This document shows positions 1 to 17,234 of a stretch of DNA of 64,000 nt, in pieces. Source of the stretch: an uncultured Porticoccus sp. Its GTDB lineage: Bacteria > Pseudomonadota > Gammaproteobacteria > Pseudomonadales > Porticoccaceae. The notes beneath the pieces are model-generated. The model ran no database searches. It was not told where the DNA came from and was given only the letters and a program-made list of their open reading frames with translations. A program made the translations under genes and the position numbers. The stretch's first letter is position 1; each line of letters opens with the position of its first letter. The stretch is taken from assembly GCF_913061305.1 (NCBI RefSeq), contig NZ_CAJXST010000005.1, positions 186,001 to 250,000 on the forward strand, written 5' to 3'.

Positions 1-1511
1 GCATCAATGGTAATCTCGTCGCCATTTTCGATAATGGCAATCGGCCCGCCGTCCATCGCTTCCGGTGTTATGTGGCCCACCACAAAACCGTGACTGCCAC
101 CGGAGAAGCGACCGTCGGTTATCAGCGCCACATCGTTGCCCAGGCCTTTGCCCATGACTGCGGAGGTAGGGCTGAGCATTTCCCGCATGCCCGGTCCGCC
201 TCGCGGCCCTTCATAACGGATTACGATCACATCACCTTTTATCACGATGCCGCCCAGTATGGCCTCCAAGGCTTCTTCCTCGGAGTTGAACACTCGTGCT
301 GTTCCGGTAAATGTCAGGCCTTCTTTTCCGGTGATTTTTGCCACGGCACCGTCTGGTGCCAGATTACCCCTGAGCACCACCAGGTGACTGCTGTCTTTAA
401 TGGCATTGTCAAAGCCGTGAACAATGTCCTGTTCTACCGGGTATGGCTTAATATCCGCTAAGTTTTCTCCCAGGGTTTTACCGGTGACGGTCAGGCAGTC
501 GCCATGGAGCAGGCCTTTATCCAGCAGCATTTTCATCAAGGGTTGAATACCACCAATGGCGATCAATTCAGACATCATGTATTTACCGCTGGGGCGCAAG
601 TCAGCGAGCACGGGAACCTTTTTGCCGATCCGAACAAAGTCATTCAGAGTCAGTTCCACATCAACGGCGTGCGCCATGGCCAACAAGTGCAACACGGCAT
701 TGGTGGAACCACCCAGTGCAATGATGACGGTAATGGCATTTTCAAATGCCTTGTGAGTCATGATGTCGGTGGGTTTGATGTCACGCTCTAGTAACGATAG
801 AACCGCGGCTCCGGCACGACGGCTATCTTCCGATTTGGAAGACGACACCGCTTCCTGTGACGAGCTGTCCGGCAGGCTCATGCCCAGTGCCTCAATCGCG
901 GCAGCCATGGTGTTCGCCGTATACATGCCACCGCAGGATCCCGGACCGGGTATGGCGGTCTCCTCGATCTGTTTGACTTCAATCGTTGAAAGGTCACCGC
1001 GGGCATGCTGACCGACGGCTTCGAATACCGAGATAATATCAGTATGGTGTTTGCCTGGTTTTATGGTGCCACCGTAAACAAAGACCGATGGACGGTTGAG
1101 ACGGGCCAGCCCGATAAGGCAGCCGGGCATATTTTTATCGCAACCGCCAATGGCCACAAGCCCATCGAAGCCTTCGCAGCCGGCTACCGTCTCGATAGAA
1201 TCGGCAATCACTTCTCGTGACACCAAAGAATATTTCATGCCCTCGGTGCCGTTTGAGATACCATCGGATATGGTGATGGTGTTAAAGATAACGCCTTTGC
1301 CGCCGGCCTTGTCAGCGCCATGGCAGGCTTCATCCGCCAGTTCTTTGATATGCATATTGCAGGGCGTGACCATACTCCACGTCGATGCGATGCCGATCTG
1401 GGGTTTTTTAAAATCATCATCGTTGAAACCCACTGCCCGAAGCATGGCTCTGGCGGGTGCTTTTTCAATACCGTCGACCACTTTGAAGGAGTGCTTGCGT
1501 TTGTCAGTCAT
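1..1511 (-). CDS. ilvD: Dihydroxy-acid dehydratase IlvD, 3' end cut off by window edge
   Basis: This enzyme dehydrates 2,3-dihydroxy acids to 2-oxo acids, the penultimate shared step of valine, isoleucine and leucine synthesis. The gene reads from the ATG at 1509-1511 off the left edge, so about 503 codons of an expected 560 or so are present. Three cysteines sit in the family contexts for an Fe-S cluster: C51 (TPCNMH), C124 (GGCDKNMPG) and C193 ([10 protein letters not shown]). Its length and N-terminus resemble the shorter IlvD type rather than the 610-residue E. coli type. No Shine-Dalgarno sequence precedes the ATG; the leader is A/C-rich with repeated AAACA. The start is supported by the family-typical N-terminus (MTDKRKHS). 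Function is secure. Confidence 0.96.
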
Positions 1512-1602
1512 TTGTTTGTCTGTTTGTGTAGGTTGTTTGCCAGTGTGTATTGGATAAGCTTTGTTAAGTCTCTGGATCTTTTGCCATCCAGTCCTTGTCC
1601 AG

Positions 1603-1863
1603 CTATTCCATACTCGATCGCCTGTCAATTGACATAAGCTGTTCCAGCGTCGCATTGTGCCTTTGATACGCGGAAATATAACTATCGACATCCTTGTTTC
1701 GCCTATCATAAAGCTCTGGCACCGTATCGTTATCTATTTTCTTGAAGATTCGGGCTAACGGTAGGCTTAGAATATTTACCGCATCCTGCCCCAGTTCCAG
1801 AGCAATTCCTGGAGTTCTACCCCGTTTCCACGGACGGTTGTGAAAAGGCTGGAAACTTGGAGA
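1603..1863 (-). pseudogene. Probable C-terminal remnant of an unidentified gene
   Basis: An 86-codon open frame without a usable start codon ends in TAG at 1603-1605 and is closed upstream by TAA at 1864-1866. The translation has protein-like composition: a basic segment (HNRPWKRGR), then a mixed hydrophobic stretch (LPLARIFKK) and a charged C-terminus ([22 protein letters not shown]). I do not recognise the family. It fills most of the 466-base gap between ilvD and fpr, and the other frames there hold nothing. It may be the tail of a lost gene or a chance open frame. Confidence 0.3.
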
Positions 1864-1977
1864 TTAAGCGGTAAAAGTGTTTAGGAATTTCGGGTAAAAT
1901 GAAAGCATCGAAGAAAAAACGGGTTTATATTCCCCGCACTCCTTTTAACTTTCGACTTCAACAACCAACAACTTCTT

Positions 1978-2748
1978 TTACCCTACGAACGCCCGCTCAA
2001 TAACATAATGCCCATAATCCCCATGCCGGGTTTCCTTGAAGCCCCAGTCATCCAGAATCTTGGAGGTGTCTTTCAGCATGGCCGGGCTGCCGCACAGCAT
2101 GAAGCGGTCGTCGTCCAGGTTTGGTTGCGGCATGCCCAGGTCAGCGAACAGTTTGCCGGACAACATCAGGTCGGTAATTCGGCCCTGGTTGCGGAACGCT
2201 TCGCGCGTGACCGTTGGGTAATAGACCAGCTTCTCCTGCACCCAGTCGCCTAAAAACTCGTTGTTTGGCAGGTTCTGAGTAATCTCTTCCTGATACGCCA
2301 GTTCGTTCAGGTGCCGTACGCCGTGGATCAGAATGATCTTGTCGTACATCTCGTACGCTTCCGGATCTTTGATAATGCTCATGAACGGTGCGAGGCCGGT
2401 ACCGGTGGCCAGCAGATAAAGATTCTTGCCCGGCAGCAGGTGGTCGGTGATCAGGGTGCCGGTGGGCTTGCGGCTGATCAGAATTTCATCACCGGGTTTG
2501 ATCAGCTGTAACCGAGAGGTCAGCGGACCATCGGGCACCTTGATGCTGAAAAATTCCAGCTCTTCCTCGTGATTGGCGCTGGCAATACTGTAGGCGCGGA
2601 GCAGTGGTTTGCCGTCCACCTCAAGACCGAGCATGGTGAAATGACCATTCTTGAAGCGGAAACCCAGATCACGAGTGGTTTTGAAGCTGAACAGCGACTC
2701 GTTCCAGTGGTGAACGTCCAGAACCGTCTCTTTTTCTAAAACTGCCAT
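1978..2748 (-). CDS. fpr: Ferredoxin--NADP+ reductase
   Basis: This FAD flavoenzyme moves electrons between NADPH and ferredoxin or flavodoxin in the cytoplasm. It supports Fe-S repair and the oxidative stress response. It has 256 residues, typical of bacterial subclass FNRs. The FAD-binding motif RAYSIAS is at about 51-57, the NADP-binding GTGLAPF at about 116-122, and the C-terminus YVIERAFVG is of the Pseudomonas/Azotobacter type. AAGG lies about 10 bases before the ATG. The gene diverges from the LysR regulator at 2866, the arrangement known for fprA and finR in Pseudomonas. A -10 box (TATAAT, minus strand) lies at 2817-2822 without a good -35, which fits activator-dependent expression. 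Confidence 0.96.
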   Translation of the reverse strand: MAVLEKETVLDVHHWNESLFSFKTTRDLGFRFKNGHFTMLGLEVDGKPLLRAYSIASANHEEELEFFSIKVPDGPLTSRLQLIKPGDEILISRKPTGTLITDHLLPGKNLYLLATGTGLAPFMSIIKDPEAYEMYDKIILIHGVRHLNELAYQEEITQNLPNNEFLGDWVQEKLVYYPTVTREAFRNQGRITDLMLSGKLFADLGMPQPNLDDDRFMLCGSPAMLKDTSKILDDWGFKETRHGDYGHYVIERAFVG

Positions 2749-2816
2749 TTATGCCGCCTTCTCTGGGACAACCAGAGCCTTGTCGAATGATTTGCCAAGA
2801 GCATAGACAGAACTTT

Positions 2817-2861
2817 ATTATAAGAAAAATGGTTTATATGAATAATTGCAATCGAATTTAT
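2817..2861 (-). promoter_or_regulatory. fpr promoter with candidate LysR-type operator
   Basis: On the minus strand a perfect TATAAT (2817-2822) has no recognisable -35 at 17 bases. Just upstream, at 2842-2861, lies the AT-rich near-palindrome ATAATTGCAATCGAATTTAT, containing ATTGCAAT and T-N11-A-like spacing. The position overlaps where a -35 would be and also lies directly before the divergent lysR start. It is therefore a reasonable binding site for the neighbouring regulator. That assignment is inference. Confidence 0.45.
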
Positions 2862-2865
2862 CTAT

Positions 2866-3735
2866 ATGCGTTTTACTCTGCGGCAATTGGACGTCTTTCT
2901 GGAAACAGCCCGGACCGGCAACATCAGTCGGGCAGCTGACTATCTGAGCATTTCCCAGTCTGCAGCCAGTAGCGCGTTAAAAGAGCTGGAGCGGCAGTAC
3001 GACATCATGTTGTTTGACCGCCTGGGCAAACGCCTCGTACTGAACGACCTGGGCCGCGCCATCCGACCTCGGGCCGAGGCCCTGCGCGACCAAGCCCGGG
3101 AACTGAATCAGGATCTTAAGCAGGAATCTGACCTTGGGGCATTGAAGGTAGGCGCCACATTGACCATTGGCAACTACTTGGCCGTGGGCATACTAACTCA
3201 GTACCGCGGTGAGCACCCGGAGGCGGAAGTGGTCCTGGAAGTGGCCAACACCGCTACCATCGTCGAAAAGGTTGCCAATTTTGAGCTCGACATTGGCATG
3301 ATCGAAGGCGAACTGAATCACCCGGACCTCTCTCTTCAGCCCTGGCAGAAAGACGAGCTGGTGATCATCTGCGCCCCGGATCACCCCTGGGCAGGCAAGC
3401 CCTGGCTGAGGGATGACGATCTGGTAAGGGCAGACTGGATATTGCGCGAAAGCGGCTCCGGCACCCGTCAGGCGTTCGATCGCGCCATGCACGGCCTGTT
3501 GCCACAGTTCAAGCCACCGCTGGAGCTACAGCACACGGAGGCCATTAAAAGAGCTGTAGAGTCTGGCATGGGGCTGGGCTGCCTGTCGCGGCTCTGCCTA
3601 CAAGACGCCTTTGACCGTGGCACCCTTGTGCCACTGCCTGTACCCGAACGCCCTATGGACCGACAGTTTTACCTGGCGCTGCATAAACGAAAATTCAGGA
3701 GCCGAGCTATTCATCAGTGGATTGAATTGTGCTGA
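2866..3735 (+). CDS. finR: LysR-family regulator, FinR-like
   Basis: This 289-residue LysR-type regulator has an N-terminal winged helix-turn-helix (about 1-60, with LRQLDVFLETARTGNISRAA and SQSAASSALKELE) and a C-terminal periplasmic-binding-like effector domain (about 90-289). It lies head-to-head with fpr across a 117-base gap. In Pseudomonas the divergent LysR protein FinR activates fprA under superoxide and iron stress, so the same role is inferred here. No clear Shine-Dalgarno sequence precedes the ATG, but the start is fixed by the usual LysR N-terminus. The specific symbol rests on gene context and is less certain than the family. Confidence 0.85.
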   Translation: MRFTLRQLDVFLETARTGNISRAADYLSISQSAASSALKELERQYDIMLFDRLGKRLVLNDLGRAIRPRAEALRDQARELNQDLKQESDLGALKVGATLTIGNYLAVGILTQYRGEHPEAEVVLEVANTATIVEKVANFELDIGMIEGELNHPDLSLQPWQKDELVIICAPDHPWAGKPWLRDDDLVRADWILRESGSGTRQAFDRAMHGLLPQFKPPLELQHTEAIKRAVESGMGLGCLSRLCLQDAFDRGTLVPLPVPERPMDRQFYLALHKRKFRSRAIHQWIELC

Positions 3736-3871
3736 GGTCCAATGCGGTTCTGAGAGCGACTGAGCGGCATCCCGAACCGGTCGCGACTGATGCTCGGTGG
3801 TCCCGAGAAATCGCATTTTCACCCCTAGCCACTCTGGCTGTTGGAAAGCGTTAGAGTGCAGGACTGACAGA

Positions 3872-4365
3872 TTATTGGTAAATCAACGCCAACGGCTTGT
3901 CATCTAAGTGTTGCGGTGCCACATCAAATACCACCCGGGCATTGGCCAGACCAATGATGCGATCCGCAAAGCGTTTGGCGTATTCGAGTTGATGTAAGGA
4001 AACCACTACAGTAATGCCGTCTTTCGCACAGATTTGTTTTAGTTGGGACAGAACTTTTTCTGAGGTGGATGGATTCAGGCTTGCCCCCGGTTCATCGGCC
4101 AGAATAATGGTTGGTTGTTGAGCCAGTGCTCTGGCGATACCCACCCGTTGTTACTGACCGCCAGGTAATTGATCTACCCGTGCCAACTCTTTATCAGTCA
4201 ATTCAACCCGATCCAGGCAATGCAATGCCAGTGCCAATTCATATTGGGGCATCGGCAACAGGCTGCGTAAGAATAAGTGATAACCGAGTCGCCCCTTACA
4301 CATTCTGCAGCGCAGTGTGGCGTAAAACAAGCTGGTGATGTTGGCACGCCGAACTCGGCTGAATG
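3872..4365 (-). pseudogene. phnC: Decayed phnC-like phosphonate ABC transporter ATPase
   Basis: Reading the minus strand, pieces of a PhnC-type ATPase appear in order. RVRRA occurs near 4350-4363, [15 protein letters not shown] in a second frame (4343 down to a TAA at 4298-4296), then [14 protein letters not shown] back in the first frame from 4294. The ABC signature is interrupted as LPGGQ-stop-QRVGIARAL by TAA at 4151-4153. The intact Walker B/D-loop region (IILADEPGASLNP) and H-loop (VVVSLHQLEYA) run to the stop at 3872. The N-terminal third, including Walker A, is missing. Two frame changes, one nonsense codon and a truncation next to an IS fragment make this a non-functional remnant. No phnD or phnE remnants are visible. 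Confidence 0.85.
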
Positions 4366-4382
4366 TAGTGGTTCAATGATTC

Positions 4383-4542
4383 TGGACACCAACATAGGGG
4401 GTAGTATCGCCACCATAAGCGGTGTCTGCTGGCCAGGAAACGACGATCTTTTACGCCTGAGTTCAAACGGAAAGCTGCCTGTCTGTTGCTTGACCAGGGT
4501 TACAGTGTTGCCGAAGCCCGCCGCTCTTTGAATTGTCCGTAA
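4383..4542 (+). mobile_element. IS3-family insertion sequence fragment (orfA N-terminus)
   Basis: From 4438 the plus strand encodes KRRSFTPEFKRKAACLLL then DQGYSVAEARRSLNCP and a stop at 4540-4542. This is the helix-turn-helix start of an IS3-family OrfA transposase. The usual ATG is absent; CTG stands about two codons before the KRR motif. Upstream, TGGACACC at 4383-4390 resembles the terminal inverted repeat of this IS group. The rest of orfA, all of orfB and the right end are not visible. The left edge coincides with the point where the phnC remnant loses its N-terminus, so the IS probably truncated that gene and then decayed. Confidence 0.7.
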
Positions 4543-4630
4543 AATCGGGGAAGAACCCGTTTTATCTTGGTCAGCGTAGTCTTTGGGCGTTCAGATCAAG
4601 TGGCCTTTGATCATTTTTCTGTTATTTATG

Positions 4631-6385
4631 TCACGACGAGCAGCTGTAATGTGACAATCCACCGACCCCAAACAATGCCGACGGCTTCAGCCGATAATAT
4701 TTTTCTTCCACCTCTTTTGATTGCTCCGCGTAGGGGTGTGACATGACTTCCTGCAGCTCCCGAAGTTGAGCATAGTGACCCGTATTCGCTTGCTGATACG
4801 CTAAAACAACCAGCCATTCCCGCAAACTGTATTTTGGGTTAATGCGTTTCATCTGGCTGGAAATTGTTTCATTAGAGCGACCTGGGCTGCCTGCACTGAT
4901 TAGCGATTTCCATTTTGTGAGCCACGCTGTCCATCGCTCGTCAATTTCCTTGTTATTTATTTCAGGCCTTGATTGTATTGGCTCACCAGAAGGATTCGTG
5001 TCTGTATAAAAGCTTTTTTTAAGTGGACCAATATCATCAGGCACCCACGAGAGCTCGCGAAAGAAGAGGGTGTAATCAACAGGTGTTTGCCTCATTAGCA
5101 CGATGAGTTCGTTAAATAATTCTGTGTTAAAAGCGTCAAGGCCCAGTTTGGCTGCCCACATTTTTTCCATTGCCACTTGCATCAACGCTGGAAACTCAAT
5201 TTGAAGCGCATCGAGCTGTTTTAAAGCGTCTGGGTGTGACGCTAGCAATGGCCGTAAAGCGGAACAAAACATCTGAAAGTTACGTTCTGCTGCAACATGT
5301 TGGTTCAGGAAAGAGAAATGACGTCCGCCTCCCGTCCATGGCTGGAAGTATGGGTTGAATACCTCACAGAACCCGAAAGGGCCATAGTCAAGTGTGAAGC
5401 CACCGGCTGCGCAGTTGTCACTGTTGAAGTTGCCCTGGCAGTAACCGACGCGAATCCAGTTTGCCACGAGAGAGATGAGTCGGCTGCGAAACTCACGTGC
5501 AAGTACCACTGCTTTTTTTTCGATGCCTAGATTTGGTTCGATAACGTCATCGTATTCTCGGTCAATCAAGTGCAATACAATTTTTTCAAGTTCCTCCATC
5601 GCCTGCGGATATTCTTTCTTGCGGGCACGACGACCGAAGAGTTCGAGTTGGCCTACCCGGATGAATGAAGGTGCAACCCGTGTCAAAACGGCGACTGGCT
5701 CCGAGATAAGTATGTCCGGATCGGCTGCGCGGGAACCCTCCGAGTACCACGGCCGCTTAACCTTCTCTGTTTTCGAAACGTACAAACTCAGAGACCGTGA
5801 CGTTGGCACCCCGAGTGCGTGCATGTACTCCTGCGCCAAGAACTCCCGCACACTTGACCGCAGAACAGCTCGACCATCGGCGCCACGACAGTATGGCGTT
5901 CGGCCACCACCTTTTAGCTGCATCTCCCAGCGTTGACCATTGATAACGACTTCAAGTATGGAAATCGCGCGACCGTCACCGTAACCGTTACCAGTTTGGA
6001 ACGGACACTGCTGGGTGTATTCAGTGCCGTAAATTGACAGTGCGTAACCACATGCCCAGCCAACCTTTCTCATCGGGACTGGAACAAAAGAAATGTCACC
6101 GGAGAACACGCGGATGAAGTCTGCCGACTGCGCCATGCTGTCGGCGAAGCCTAATTCGTGAAACAGGTTTTGGCTGTGGGCGATGTAATCAGGGGCTTCG
6201 ATTGGTGTAGGGGCGACAGGGACATAGTGGCCCCTGAAAACTTGGCGTGAGACATGATCATCTCCATGCTTATTTGCGTCAGGATCGCAGGTGAGAAAAT
6301 CCATCAGTGAATAATTTGTCAACTTTGCGAGATCTTTTAGGGTCGAGACGATAAAGGGGATTTTTTGAAGCGGTTGTTTTTTCAT
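4631..6385 (-). CDS. selO: Protein adenylyltransferase SelO (YdiU family), long form
   Basis: SelO is a pseudokinase-fold enzyme that transfers AMP to protein side chains. Numbering from the upstream ATG at 6422-6424 (597 residues), I see [12 protein letters not shown] (169-180), [10 protein letters not shown] (182-191), the catalytic/metal motif NSDN (D336, N337) and DYGPFGF (D346). The C-terminus ends in CSS, the place where eukaryotic homologues carry selenocysteine. It is about 100 residues longer than E. coli YdiU, and motifs such as [15 protein letters not shown] recall plant and fungal homologues. I prefer the internal ATG at 6383-6385, which has GGGAAG five bases upstream. The gene is AT-richer than its surroundings and is flanked by the IS/phnC and integrase remnants, suggesting acquisition. 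Confidence 0.9.
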
Positions 6386-6424
6386 TGAGCTTCCCATTGG
6401 ACAGCTAGATTCGACTTCAATCAT

Positions 6425-6991
6425 TATTTCGGATAATGCATCATTCTCCCATTCTTCTGATTTGGATCTTACTGTATCAATGGGTTACATAACATCGCTG
6501 GCCGCTTGCGAGACTGACTGCTTTGTTATAATTAAAGATGCATCAATATAGAAGATAATATTGTGACAGTTCGTTTCACACATTATTCATACCTTCCATC
6601 AATAAGCCGGATGCTCAGTGCGACTGTTGTCTCCTCCTGCTGTAGAACCGGCAAAGCAACTAGGTATGAAGACATCATTTTTGAAGTCAAGCAGAGGATA
6701 CTAATTGGCAGACTCTCACAGGAATGATGAACTTTAAGAGAGACTTCTGCTACTTTTAAACTGATATATGCGAGAGTAAGCGTAACGAGATTTTGGGTCA
6801 GCGAGCCCTGGTTAAGGCTAAGACTATGACGAAACCGAAAATACATAACCTACGGTTAGCAGGCAAACTGGAGAAGCAACCGGCAGAGGAGTGTCTCTTG
6901 GAAATAGGGTCAAATGGTTCCATGAGGTCTGACGACGTACAGTAGTCCCATTACCACCAACCCTGATTATCTGCCCATCTGGGCAAATTTT
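6425..6991. other. Gene-poor AT-rich gap between selO and the integrase stub
   Basis: These 567 bases hold no gene I can support. An 88-codon minus-strand frame at 6583-6846 and a 39-codon plus-strand frame starting near 6826 have no ribosome binding site and no recognisable motif. The selO promoter must lie at the left end. A GCCC-ATCT-GGGC hairpin followed by AAATTTTTT (6973-6993) is terminator-like. Composition resembles selO, not the flanking core genes. Confidence 0.5.
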
Positions 6992-6993
6992 TT
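6973..6993 (+). terminator. Short terminator-like hairpin
   Basis: GCCC (6973-6976), loop ATCT, GGGC (6981-6984), then AAA and six T. The stem is only four base pairs (five with A-T closure), so termination would be weak. No confident gene ends into it on the plus strand; it may be a relic of deleted DNA. Confidence 0.3.
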
Positions 6994-7285
6994 AGGCTTT
7001 TTGCTTTTTCCTTATGTGAGTGACGTTGCTGCTTGCTGAGTCGACATACGCCGCCCAGGCATTCATCATTTTGAAGCGCTTCTTCAGCAGCTCGCCTCGC
7101 GCGTATGCTTTCTCCGCTTCATCTGTTAGGACATGGGCTATGGCAAACTCCGCGATTTTGTGGGGAAAGCCGGTTTCCTCACCGATATAGTCCCTGAATG
7201 TTGACCGGAAGCCACTTGTCGGATTTTGTGCCATTTTACTGCACTGTAGTACGGTTTCCAGTGATTCTGGTGTTTTATCCGTATA
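6992..7285 (-). pseudogene. C-terminal stub of a P4-type tyrosine integrase
   Basis: The minus-strand frame reads PESLETVLQCSKM, then GFRSTFRDYIGEE, IAEFAIAHVLTDEAEKAYARG and MMNAWAAYVDS. This is the diagnostic end of P4/CP4-57-type site-specific recombinases, with the HGFRstfrD box and the catalytic tyrosine in AYARG. The histidine normally preceding GFR is serine here. The readable homology begins around 7285, and the N-terminal DNA-binding and first catalytic arginine regions are missing. The frame has no plausible start. It is a relic of an integrative element; no tRNA attachment site is visible next to it. Confidence 0.85.
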
Positions 7286-7484
7286 CCTGGTCCGGTCATG
7301 ATAATCAGGGTAACGGCAAGAACTGCGCGGTTTTCATCCTGTTGCTGTTAAATTATCGGGTTGGTCCAGCAGCCCCTTTTCAACCCGTATGGGCAAATGA
7401 TCCCTTTCCTTTCAACGTCTTTTCCTCTACCTTGAAGTAATTCGTTCCTTTGATTTAACCCAGTTAATCTGGAAAGGTATATTC

Positions 7485-8216
7485 ATGAAAGACCTTGATA
7501 CAAAAATGGAAGAGACTACTGCGACCCCATGGGATCAGTGGTTTGAAATGCTGACGGCCTTTAAAGCGGAAAAGGGCCACTGCCTGGTGCCTCATAACTA
7601 CAAGACCCCGGAGGGATATCCCCTGTGGTATTGGGTGAGGAAGATGTGCCGGGATAAATCCAGTGGCGAGCTTTCAGCGGGTCAGATAGAACGACTCAAC
7701 AGTCTGGAGTTTGTCTGGGACCTGCAAGACCTGTCCTGGGAGAAGGGATTTGCTGCATTGCAGGCCTACAAAGCAGAGTACGGCGATTGTCTGGTCCCCG
7801 ATGGTTATGTGACCAGGGATGATTATCCCCTTGGCATATGGGCGCGGGATCAACGTTATTTTGATGGCAATTATCCACGAGAAAAATATCATCGACTCGC
7901 CGAGCTCGGCTTTGTCTGGGATTTGCGTGAATACGCATGGGACCGGATGTACGCCGCGCTTGAGGCCTATCAGAAAGAGCACGGCGATTGCCTTGTGCCG
8001 AAGGGTTATCTGGTTGAAGGGGGCGTCGATCTCAGTATGTGGGTAACCAGGCAGCGTTCAGATTTGGCAAACAATTATCTCACACAGCAAAAGCTGTCAA
8101 AATTGAACAAGCTGGGTTTCTGCTGGGCGACAGCCGATGACTTGCCCCATGTGCTGTTTGTACCGAGCGACAAGGATTCGATAAGTAGCACTTCAACCTC
8201 AAGCCGCTCGCTTTAA
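7485..8216 (+). CDS. Stand-alone protein of three helicase-associated (HA) repeats
   Basis: This 243-residue protein consists almost entirely of three HA (PF03457-type) repeats at about 16-79, 85-146 and 152-214. Each follows W-x-x-x-(F/Y)-x-x-L-x-A-(F/Y)-(K/Q), a central G-(H/D)-C-L-V-P, a W-(V/A) near the middle and a closing lgFvW(D). HA repeats are found appended to DEAD/DEAH helicases and are thought to bind nucleic acid. No helicase domain is present here. The last 25 residues are serine/threonine-rich and probably disordered. GGAAAGG lies seven bases before the ATG. It sits beside an integrase stub, so it is probably cargo of the lost element. Its function is unknown. Confidence 0.8.
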   Translation: MKDLDTKMEETTATPWDQWFEMLTAFKAEKGHCLVPHNYKTPEGYPLWYWVRKMCRDKSSGELSAGQIERLNSLEFVWDLQDLSWEKGFAALQAYKAEYGDCLVPDGYVTRDDYPLGIWARDQRYFDGNYPREKYHRLAELGFVWDLREYAWDRMYAALEAYQKEHGDCLVPKGYLVEGGVDLSMWVTRQRSDLANNYLTQQKLSKLNKLGFCWATADDLPHVLFVPSDKDSISSTSTSSRSL

Positions 8217-8618: not shown

Positions 8619-9539
8619 ATGACTGACTTCAAACACATCGCACTGGTGGCCAACATCCAGTTGCCCGAGATTATCGATTCCCTGAAACGACTGATCACTT
8701 TTCTGACGCAATCCGGCTATCAGGTGTTGCTTGAGCAGAAAACGGCGGAACTGGTCGGCGACAGCCAATTACCGGTATTTGATAGTGATAGCCTCGAGAC
8801 GCCTGTCGATCTGATCATTGTGGTTGGGGGCGATGGCAGTATGCTGAGCGCTGTACGCAGCTTGGTGAGATACGATGTACCGTTGCTGGGTGTCAATCGG
8901 GGGCGATTGGGTTTTCTTACCGATATTCTGCCGGATGAAATGGAATCACAGATGAAACGGGTGCTGGCCGGGGAGTTTATTCTTTCCAGCCGTTTTCTGC
9001 TGGATGTTTCCATTAGCAGAAAAGGTGCTGTTATTGGAACCGGTGCCGCGCTTAATGATGTGGTGCTCCACCCGGGGAAATCCGTCCGGATGATGGAGTT
9101 TGAGCTGTATATCGATGGGCAGTTTGTCTACAGCCAGTGTTCCGATGGCCTGATTGTTTCTACCCCGACGGGATCTACAGCCTATGCGCTCTCGGGGGGT
9201 GGACCGATCATGCACCCCAACCTGGATGCGATTGTTCTGGTGCCGATGAATCCCCATACGTTGTCCAGTCGACCTATTGTCGTGGGCGGTAAGAGTGAAA
9301 TCGAAATCCGGGTGGGGTCCCGCAACGAGCTGCACCCACTGGTCACCTGTGACGGCCAGACCGATTTGCAGTCCGAGCCCGGTGATATCATCCGGATCCA
9401 CAAGAAAACCCGCCAGGTGCAGTTGATTCATCCAGTGGCCCACAATTTTTATGAAACCTGTCGTACCAAGCTTGGGTGGGGCAGCAGACTGGGCATTGAT
9501 GAGCGCACCAGTGAGCGCATCAGTAAGCCGGTCAACTAA
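8619..9539 (+). CDS. nadK: NAD kinase
   Basis: NadK phosphorylates NAD+ to NADP+ with ATP in the cytoplasm. At 306 residues it is slightly longer than the usual 290-300. It carries the GGDGS nucleotide motif (VVGGDGSMLSAVR), NDVVLHPG, and the family-defining SDGLIVSTPTGSTAYALSGG followed by GPIMHP. The start is supported by the standard N-terminus (FKHIALVANIQLPE). The rhomboid gene follows after five bases, so the two are probably co-transcribed. Confidence 0.97.
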   Translation: MTDFKHIALVANIQLPEIIDSLKRLITFLTQSGYQVLLEQKTAELVGDSQLPVFDSDSLETPVDLIIVVGGDGSMLSAVRSLVRYDVPLLGVNRGRLGFLTDILPDEMESQMKRVLAGEFILSSRFLLDVSISRKGAVIGTGAALNDVVLHPGKSVRMMEFELYIDGQFVYSQCSDGLIVSTPTGSTAYALSGGGPIMHPNLDAIVLVPMNPHTLSSRPIVVGGKSEIEIRVGSRNELHPLVTCDGQTDLQSEPGDIIRIHKKTRQVQLIHPVAHNFYETCRTKLGWGSRLGIDERTSERISKPVN

Positions 9540-15518: not shown

Positions 15519-17234
15519 TTACTTGCCATACAACGGTGCCAGTGGCGTCCCTTTTTGTTGTTTGCCCAGGTTTTTTCGGTTTTTTCTGAGCTGTTTTAAT
15601 TGTTCAAAGATCGCCGGCAGGCTGACCGTGTCCGGGGCGGTGCCGCTGTAGAGCGTGCGATCCAGCGCATCCAGTGTTCCGGCCAGCTCGTCACTGTGCG
15701 CTGTGGTGGCCACATCCTGCAGGGTCAATAAGGGTGTGTCCCAGTATATTCTCGCCCAGCGCAGCAGAGCATGGCGGAATGCCCGCGGGTTATCGCTTTT
15801 GGATTGTCGCTGGAGCTCGGCAAATAATGTGGTTTCTTCGGGCTCATTCAGTGTTTCTACCGGGGTGACTTTCAATGCCGGTTGACGACGGCTATTGCGC
15901 CACAGCAAAAACAGTACTGCCACGGCGATCAGGAGCAAAAGATTCACCCCGATCAATATCCATATCAGCAGGCCGGACTCCTGAGCGACAACGGGTGCAA
16001 CTATCGGTTCGGTTGCGTTGCTGTTGTCGGTTTCATCCGTTCCGGTCACGTCCGGCACCTGGCCTGCAGCGGCTTTCACTGTCAGCGTGCGTTGTTCAAG
16101 GACTGCTTGCCTCGGTTGCTGACTGACGGTGTCCCACCATTGGACGGTTACCGGGGGCAGTGTGATGGTTCCGGCTCTGGATGGCACAATGGCCATTGAT
16201 TCCACCCGTGATCCGATCACGCCACTGCTGTCGCCACTGTTATCCATTTGAGGCTGGTCGGGGTAAATTTTGTAACCATCGCCATTGGGGATTTGCAAGG
16301 GGGGCAGCTGAGTAGCCGCCAGTTCCTGGGCGGTCAGTGTGATGGTACGGGTGATCGGTTCCCCTGCCACCAGTTCATCGGGCGGGCGGCTCCAACGCTC
16401 GGTGAGACTGAGCCCCTTGGCTGGAAGCCAGGCCCCACCACCCGAGTTGGTGGGGCGGGGCAGAACAGTCACGCTTTGCTCGTCCGAATAGAGCAGGACA
16501 CGCTTGCCCCGGTTTCCGAAAAGAGAGCCCGAGAAAGGATCGCGGCGATCCGGAATAGCCGTATTCAGACGAATCTGGGGTATGACCAGTTCGCCACTGG
16601 CCTCCGGGAACAACACGTATTTGATTTCATTGACCTGATAAACCACGCCATTTTCGCGGGTCTGATACTGGTTTTCCGCCAGTTGTAGTATGGAGGTGTT
16701 GTCTATTGACAAGCCGTCACTGCTGAGGCCGAGCAGGGGTTCTGATGTGAAAATCCGCAGAGTCAGTAACAGCTGTTCCTGAACATAGGCGGTGGTTTTA
16801 TCCAGCTCGGTTTCAACAAATATCGGATCCCTGTTTTTCGCTGCAGGGCGGCGATCTTCCACCTGCAGGGTGATTGCCTCGCTATTCACGCCTTTAAAAT
16901 CAAGCTCCGGGATCAGTATTTCCCCCGTTTCTCTGGGCAGCAGCTCCAGAAGCCACTCTGTGTAGGAGATCGCCTTGCCATTGATCAGTGAAAACTGGTT
17001 TTGCTGGCGGCGGGAGAGGATCTCAAAGTTCTCTTCCAGCACAGAGAAGTCCGGCTCGCCAGATGTCTGGCTGTCGAATCGAACCCGCAACTCGACCGTT
17101 TCACCGCGATTGAGCTGGTTGCGGTCCACTGTCGCCGACAAGTCGTCAGCAGTGGCCCCGGCGCTGCCCAGCAACAGTAACAGCGGAACAAAAACGTAAA
17201 ATAACAGTGATCTACCCCAATCAGCGTTCATCAA
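15519..17234 (-). CDS. batD: BatD-family membrane-anchored protein
   Basis: This 571-residue BatD (oxygen tolerance) family protein begins with a signal peptide (LLFYVFVPLLLLLGSAGATA). It has several beta-rich repeats (LNRGETVELRVRFDS, a family hallmark), a transmembrane helix near 430-450 (LLIWILIGVNLLLLIAVAVLFLLW) and a cytoplasmic tail. Most of it is therefore periplasmic. It is the last gene of the MoxR-Bat operon, starting three bases after batB/C. Bat proteins are proposed to assist envelope or enzyme-complex maturation under stress; the mechanism is not established. Confidence 0.9.
   Translation of the reverse strand: MMNADWGRSLLFYVFVPLLLLLGSAGATADDLSATVDRNQLNRGETVELRVRFDSQTSGEPDFSVLEENFEILSRRQQNQFSLINGKAISYTEWLLELLPRETGEILIPELDFKGVNSEAITLQVEDRRPAAKNRDPIFVETELDKTTAYVQEQLLLTLRIFTSEPLLGLSSDGLSIDNTSILQLAENQYQTRENGVVYQVNEIKYVLFPEASGELVIPQIRLNTAIPDRRDPFSGSLFGNRGKRVLLYSDEQSVTVLPRPTNSGGGAWLPAKGLSLTERWSRPPDELVAGEPITRTITLTAQELAATQLPPLQIPNGDGYKIYPDQPQMDNSGDSSGVIGSRVESMAIVPSRAGTITLPPVTVQWWDTVSQQPRQAVLEQRTLTVKAAAGQVPDVTGTDETDNSNATEPIVAPVVAQESGLLIWILIGVNLLLLIAVAVLFLLWRNSRRQPALKVTPVETLNEPEETTLFAELQRQSKSDNPRAFRHALLRWARIYWDTPLLTLQDVATTAHSDELAGTLDALDRTLYSGTAPDTVSLPAIFEQLKQLRKNRKNLGKQQKGTPLAPLYGK

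Follow-up and report, generated by a model that had tools for sequence, protein, structure and literature searches.

A helicase-free protein of three HA repeats retained across the genus Porticoccus

The window (the whole stretch of 64,000 nucleotides that was analysed) belongs to a Porticoccus genome of 2.68 Mb in 16 contigs that is 99.59% complete (G000). Near its left end lies a gene, here called HA3, for a protein that consists of a short N-terminus, three HA repeats and a floppy tail (Table 1). In a hmmscan search the protein belongs to Pfam family PF03457 (HA), the curated cut-off of 28.4 bits being far exceeded (180.8 bits, E 5.3e-54, three stretches); neither SF2 helicase domains nor any other Pfam family were found in it at E ≤ 1, and a search of NCBIfam yielded nothing significant. 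When the whole genome is searched for HA, each of the three repeats is again above the cut-off, with L-x-F-x-W at its end, and all three lie inside a frame of 271 open codons with zero stops. The first-pass annotation, made from the letters of the sequence, had described a protein of three HA repeats plus a disordered tail and nothing else, with a strong ribosome site and intact repeats. This description holds: PF03457 is the only family recognized, residues 221–243 are modelled with pLDDT below 50, and GGAAAGG precedes the start codon of the open frame. The GC content of the gene is 51.4% (window, 53.5%), and a promoter scan gave 4 sites versus 1.9 expected, an uninformative result.

Table 1. 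Features at and around HA3 (positions in the window; C5, contig numbering).
Feature	Position	Strand	Remark
tRNA-Asp island	1–7234, plus ~2.7 kb to the left of the window (C5:183302 to ~193234)		reductase, LysR, SelO, integrase remnant
Tyrosine integrase remnant	6992–7234	-	C-terminal part, 80 codons; right-hand end of the tRNA-Asp island; separate from HA3
Inverted repeat CCAG-5nt-CTGG	7460–7472	+	overlaps the HA3 ribosome site
Shine-Dalgarno-like GGAAAGG	7471–7477	+	ATG 7 nt downstream
HA3, stand-alone triple-HA protein	7485–8216	+	ATG start, open reading frame of 243 aa
HA repeat 1	7524–7712 (C5:193524–193712)	+	without the QR pair present in repeats 2 and 3 (alignment)
HA repeat 2	7728–7913 (C5:193728–193913)	+	most conserved repeat; QR and GxYPRxKxxRL invariant in 16 aligned copies
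HA repeat 3	7929–8120 (C5:193929–194120)	+	QR invariant; single-repeat model with pLDDT 94.1
C-terminal tail of HA3	8127–8213	+	largely predicted disordered; variable within the genus
NAD kinase (nadK)	8619–9539	+	Pfam; right-hand neighbour, marks the tRNA-Asp–nadK junction that holds HA3 in this lineage

The left-hand neighbour of HA3 is the end of an integrase; over 73 residues it shares 86% identity with the terminal part of an intact integrase of 414 amino acids located at the same place in genome G015 (domains Arm-DNA-bind_3, Phage_int_M and Phage_integrase). The island that it closes begins behind a tRNA-Asp gene (C5:183225–183301, locus L143) 10.2 kb before HA3 and further contains a reductase (FAD_binding_6, NAD_binding_1), a LysR regulator and a SelO protein, all recognized by Pfam, as well as an open reading frame without Pfam match that was read as an ABC-ATPase fragment. 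In G015 the last bases of tRNA-Asp are repeated behind the intact integrase, as would be expected of an island that had integrated in this tRNA; inside the window no copy of this end with three or fewer mismatches was found. It had been stated that HA3 lies beside decayed neighbours, which is true of the integrase remnant on its left but not of the genes on its right: NAD kinase, rhomboid, DUF2797 and M1 aminopeptidase (Pfam) have counterparts 91–98% identical in genomes of the same lineage, where the fetched stretch reached (DUF2797 of G015 is in two pieces, and the G002 stretch reached the start of NAD kinase only). Further to the right, a tRNA-Ser(cga) placed by ARAGORN at 16410–16503 is probably spurious, being inside a long open reading frame of the opposite strand (15519–17234).

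With an integrase remnant adjoining it, HA3 could be an accessory gene of a mobile element, either of the tRNA-Asp island or of an earlier one, as the first-pass annotation had proposed among other possibilities. Besides the copy in G015, G009 and the window's genome each have an additional copy of the tRNA-Asp 3′-end some hundreds of bases past the tRNA; the one in G009 sits near the point where the DNA common upstream of HA3 starts. In G003 and G007, HA3 is found about 0.2–2 kb from a tRNA-Ser gene; plasmids, too, carry HA genes (417 of 72,556 records have an HA match), and in G123 pieces of HA lie beside an integrase. The synonymous divergence, however, separates HA3 from the island. Between G000 and G012, dS is 0.446 for HA3 (on 204 codons) and 0.231–0.376 for NAD kinase, rhomboid and aminopeptidase, versus only 0.038–0.085 for three island genes; thus HA3 has 5–12 times the dS of these island genes and is similar to the core genes. 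Between G000 and G002 the values are 0.111 for part of SelO and 0.441 for part of NAD kinase. The island is therefore a recent arrival, by this measure apparently exchanged between species not long ago, and HA3 is older. In addition, the 19 kb surrounding HA3 yielded neither island genes nor an integrase in G005 and G009, where HA3 lies 0.38 kb and 0.46 kb, respectively, from tRNA-Asp, and 10 other genomes have HA3 elsewhere. HA3 as cargo of the present island was rejected on these grounds, and an accessory role in a mobile element of whatever age appears very improbable. An older insertion is possible in view of the additional tRNA-Asp ends that both G009 and the window's genome have close to HA3, and an ancient element may have brought HA3 in.

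A survey of the neighbourhoods finds HA3 at three places in the genus. It lies upstream of nadK in 6 genomes (G000, G002, G005, G009, G012, G015), beside a gene of the ABC-F type in 8 (G001, G004, G006, G008, G010, G013, G014, G016) and after an MgtE gene in G003 and G007 (Pfam, G007 copy). The ABC-F-type gene, which we take to be EttA-like, has two ABC_tran domains and one ABC_tran_Xtn domain in the G001 copy; in G006 it is separated from HA3 by three open reading frames, and in 6 of the 8 neighbourhoods of this type a DUF1456 gene (Pfam, G001 copy) flanks HA3 on the other side. Since the neighbours differ among the three lineages, there is no conserved operon partner, and a functional association based on operon structure was rejected.

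The junction that harbours HA3 in the window's lineage is present without it in other genomes. For example, tRNA-Val and tRNA-Asp precede nadK with no HA3 between them in G001, G004, G006, G008, G010, G011, G014 and G016, the gap between tRNA-Asp and nadK being 223–303 nt in the seven genomes measured, from which it follows that HA3 was either inserted in the window's lineage or lost in the others. In G003 and G007 there is no tRNA within 1.5 kb of nadK, and the contig of G013 ends too early for the junction to be judged. The tree of HA3 and that of NAD kinase plus rhomboid are broadly alike and have the main groups in common. G004 and G013 are placed differently in the two trees (node support 71% in the HA3 tree), and this mismatch makes transfer within the genus possible. 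Both of these genomes contain tandem copies of HA3 (G013, L047:5932–7529; G004, L051:1–1078); in G013 the two copies are strongly diverged from one another, and in G004 the first copy is cut by the contig end.

In a first sample of 58 genomes, HA matches were found in 16, all of them members of Porticoccus (16 of its 17 genomes; other genomes, 0 of 41). The sole genome of the genus without a match, G011, is 87% complete. The HA frames of the genus have 238–272 codons, fragments in G004 aside, and G012 displays only two repeats because of unread bases. Within the family (112 genomes) HA is present in 16 of the 17 genomes of the genus and in 2 of 95 outside it, both of these being single, stop-interrupted matches (G1063 and, below the cut-off, G1090). 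A single HA match interrupted by a stop, at L152:3247–3973 (-) of a family genome that does not belong to Porticoccus, adjoins an open reading frame with a weak, below-cut-off match to DUF2971. In the order, 8 of 244 genomes have HA, namely three of the genus, G123, G181 and three of genus g53. In the class, searched with the HA3 profile, matches were obtained in 4 of 369 genomes: the window's own and three with open frames of 963–1,154 codons (L106, L107 and L108), in all of which Pfam recognizes helicase domains. In the phylum there are HA matches in at least 45 of 398 genomes. Five loci come from named records; four are copies 77–88% identical, titled Porticoccus (three) or Cellvibrionales bacterium (one), and the fifth is from Elusimicrobia, with 35% identity to HA3.

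Helicase-free HA proteins are, to judge from these open frames, not unique to Porticoccus. Indeed, 10 of 40 genomes of g53, from the same order, have one-repeat HA frames of 71–115 codons (L029, L030, L031 and L145–L151), which are short and helicase-free like HA3 but contain a single repeat. Among the matches listed, no other case was found of a fixed triple HA array retained by almost all of a genus. Two further loci of the order should be mentioned. In G181 an open reading frame of 141 amino acids (L060:4244–4669, -) combines one HA repeat with a downstream helix-turn-helix (Sigma70_r4, E 1.4e-06; HTH_7, E 2.2e-05), and the genes around it were read as phage- or element-like. In G123 the HA coding pieces (L055:1319–5863) are near a tyrosine integrase and an AAA_25-type open reading frame at the contig end.

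That HA3 itself belongs to a phage or to a defence system was considered and rejected. PADLOC, which covers known anti-phage defence and is silent on undescribed systems, gave 0 families at E ≤ 1, PHROGs gave no significant match (best E 0.026), viral contigs yielded no relative, and 1 of 50,697 phage records matched, with 26.5% identity.

The alignment of HA3 comprises 16 copies from 15 genomes, all of which have three repeats. G013 contributes its two tandem copies; G012, in which 43 of 729 HA3 bases are read as N, was omitted from the alignment, the HA3 trees and the dN/dS series; and G006, in which some letters are unread, was used for the alignment and the HA3 tree but left out of dN/dS. 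The copies are 46–88% identical to the window protein and share 44 invariant columns, among them Q123, R124, G128, Y130, P131, R132, K134, R137 and L138 of repeat 2. In a comparison of 7 proteins, repeats at the same position are 50.4, 59.6 and 52.2% identical (repeats 1, 2 and 3, respectively), and those at different positions 32.5–43.3%; the three repeats are therefore old and not interchangeable.

Within the window's lineage the dN/dS of HA3 is 0.118–0.187 (7 of 10 possible pairs), and in wider pairs it is 0.049–0.217 (at least 11 pairs with estimable dS, in nine of which dS exceeds 1.8). Controls from the same contigs gave 0.014–0.060 for NAD kinase, 0.100–0.139 for rhomboid and 0.065–0.099 for DUF2797; HA3 is thus near rhomboid and evolves faster than NAD kinase. 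For the integrase remnant, values of 0.83 and 1.13 were obtained from 2 of 6 pairs, with few changes (of the remaining pairs one has a dS of zero and three, with the intact integrase of G015, are not estimable), so that it is a weak neutral control, though in the expected direction. All this indicates that HA3 is intact, under purifying selection and retained across the genus, in agreement with the earlier impression that it is still in use. A gene so widely kept and intact probably encodes a functional protein and not a helicase fragment.

The repeats of HA3 are, of course, homologous to those borne by helicases, and one could imagine it to be the functionless remains of an HA helicase, whether expressed or silent. 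The low dN/dS, the fixed architecture of three repeats and the near-universal retention in the genus render this hardly credible. A truncated helicase was rejected also because Pfam finds HA only, the frame is intact and G000 has no HA match in its 2.68 Mb besides the three repeats of HA3, and hence no HA helicase from which it might have split. HA3 is therefore not part, or the loose tail, of an HA helicase, and homologues fused to a helicase throughout, with HA3 as a fragment, are not what is seen: in 16 of 17 genomes of the genus HA3 is helicase-free.

Nevertheless, the assumption that helicases are the usual carriers of HA repeats is largely right. Of eight large HA proteins picked by hand, three (those of the class) have clear helicase domains and five (L103, L104, L105, L109, L110) have HA only at E ≤ 1e-5. 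When the first 600 residues of L103, L105 and L110 were searched alone, L103 gave a marginal Helicase_C match (E 2e-05, 25.2 versus 23.5 bits), whereas L105 and L110 gave no match. Some large HA proteins may therefore be dead helicases, and L103 and L110 are suspected to be degenerate ones. The generalization does not extend to the four in which no helicase was found nor to the one-repeat frames of g53. Large proteins such as L105 and L110 resemble HA3 in that Pfam yields HA only, but they have 1,238–1,587 amino acids, 6–11 repeats and a long N-terminal part, compared with the 243 residues of HA3. The HA-tailed SF2 helicases from a Hydrogenophaga plasmid (L106) and from Elusimicrobia (L026, classed as helicase-type by eye) have tandem HA repeats that are 31–35% identical to HA3 over most of its length; L106, however, has ResIII and Helicase_C domains and basic repeats, and HA3 has neither. 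From the PF03457 family at large, to which its repeats conform both in score and in the L-x-F-x-W ending, HA3 differs by being without a helicase, having three repeats only, being acidic and possessing in repeat 2 the GxYPRxKxxRL that is invariant in the genus.

Structure prediction gave a clear answer for the single repeat and a weak one for the whole protein. The full-length model (5 sequences), with helices in each repeat and a disordered end, has a mean pLDDT of 75.2 and a pTM of 0.47. Repeat 3 modelled alone (16 repeat sequences; pTM 0.83) is predicted to have three helices (2–21, 38–50 and 56–65) around a short extended part. Foldseek returned zero matches in the PDB at E ≤ 0.001 for either model; in a second fold comparison the best Z was 4.0 for the full-length model and 2.1 for the single repeat (2w4s_B, rmsd 6.9, 51 aligned). 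The only solved chain matched significantly by sequence is 2KTA_A, titled "Putative helicase" (E 5.5e-05 with the repeat profile, 0.0021 with the HA3 profile), which differs from HA3 in being a single chain of 74 residues from a helicase-annotated protein. A library of viral models contributed two matches at E ≤ 0.001, of which one bears the label "Helicase associated domain" and the other is unnamed; the weaker ones (E 0.007–0.2) are mostly giant-virus proteins labelled helicase.

The HA domain is presumed to bind nucleic acids (Pfam description). It is thus conceivable that HA3, for which the first-pass annotation had also suggested a free regulator, is a regulator which binds DNA or RNA with specificity for sequence or structure, perhaps its own leader, where the inverted repeat is situated over the ribosome site. 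GGAAAGG and both arms of CCAG-5nt-CTGG are identical in the 6 aligned genomes of the nadK neighbourhood; repeat 2 presents four invariant basic residues (R124, R132, K134, R137); the open reading frame of G181 couples an HA repeat to a helix-turn-helix; and HA-like folds occur in viral models labelled SF2 helicase (E 0.057–0.2) and, weakly, T5 Orf172 DNA-binding (E 0.44). The repeats borne by helicases are, moreover, basic, with a mean net charge per repeat of +3.9 (24 repeats of L106, L107, L108 and L026). HA3, however, is acidic (pI 4.68–6.36 for the 16 aligned proteins), its mean net charge per repeat being −2.5 (48 repeats) as compared with +0.7 for large HA loci (260 repeats, 30 loci), a comparison that is descriptive, the sequences being related; the repeat model used for it was built from repeats of the genus only and found repeats in 30 of 30 large loci. 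This counts against a simple electrostatic coating of DNA or RNA; a specific contact via the basic residues of repeat 2 would still be compatible with an acidic net charge. As the leader repeat is also absent from the other two HA3 neighbourhoods, among the sequences listed, we consider a regulator of this kind possible but rather unlikely.

Given its acidic charge, HA3 is no less likely to have a protein or nucleoprotein as its partner than bare DNA or RNA. HA could be a module for protein-protein contacts, and HA3 an adaptor that docks on a helicase, a nuclease or a ribosome-associated partner. The conserved aromatic positions would suit such a role, as would the lack of any other HA protein in the genome and the location beside an ABC-F-type gene in one lineage. 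Set against this, the neighbours vary between lineages, and so specific a role as docking adaptor we regard as unlikely.

In our opinion HA3 is best explained, with a probability of roughly 45%, as an old chromosomal single-gene, helicase-free triple-HA protein that serves as a soluble adaptor or modulator centred on repeat 2. It would have been present in the ancestor of the genus, or have spread early through it, and then have been inherited mainly vertically, its chromosomal place changing at least twice. Each repeat would be a three-helix module, as the model of repeat 3 suggests, and the three together would form a binding platform whose main contact is made by repeat 2 with its QR and GxYPRxKxxRL. 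HA3 would act alone on a nucleic-acid transaction, and its direct ligand would be either a nucleic acid or a protein that handles nucleic acids, neither of which we prefer.

A bolder and more doubtful version is that an HA array, once freed from a helicase, developed into a core protein that defines the genus, a three-module adaptor in which basic repeats turned acidic and repeat 2 acquired a new recognition surface. If this were true, HA repeats would have to be thought of as independent binding modules, and as more than tails of helicases. Neither a study of bacterial HA proteins, nor a paper establishing a ligand of HA repeats, nor one on their transfer from eukaryotic phytoplankton was recognised in the open-access literature, among the matches listed. 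A helicase-free array of 243 amino acids offers a compact, manageable system in which to look for such a ligand, free of the nucleic-acid binding of the helicase itself.

It should also be noted that stand-alone HA proteins are common in diatoms. P. hydrocarbonoclasticus MCTG13d, a cultured strain that has been sequenced and is described as living in association with phytoplankton (PMC4472908), is probably among the members of the genus that carry HA3, and in view of both a transfer of HA3 from eukaryotic phytoplankton was considered.
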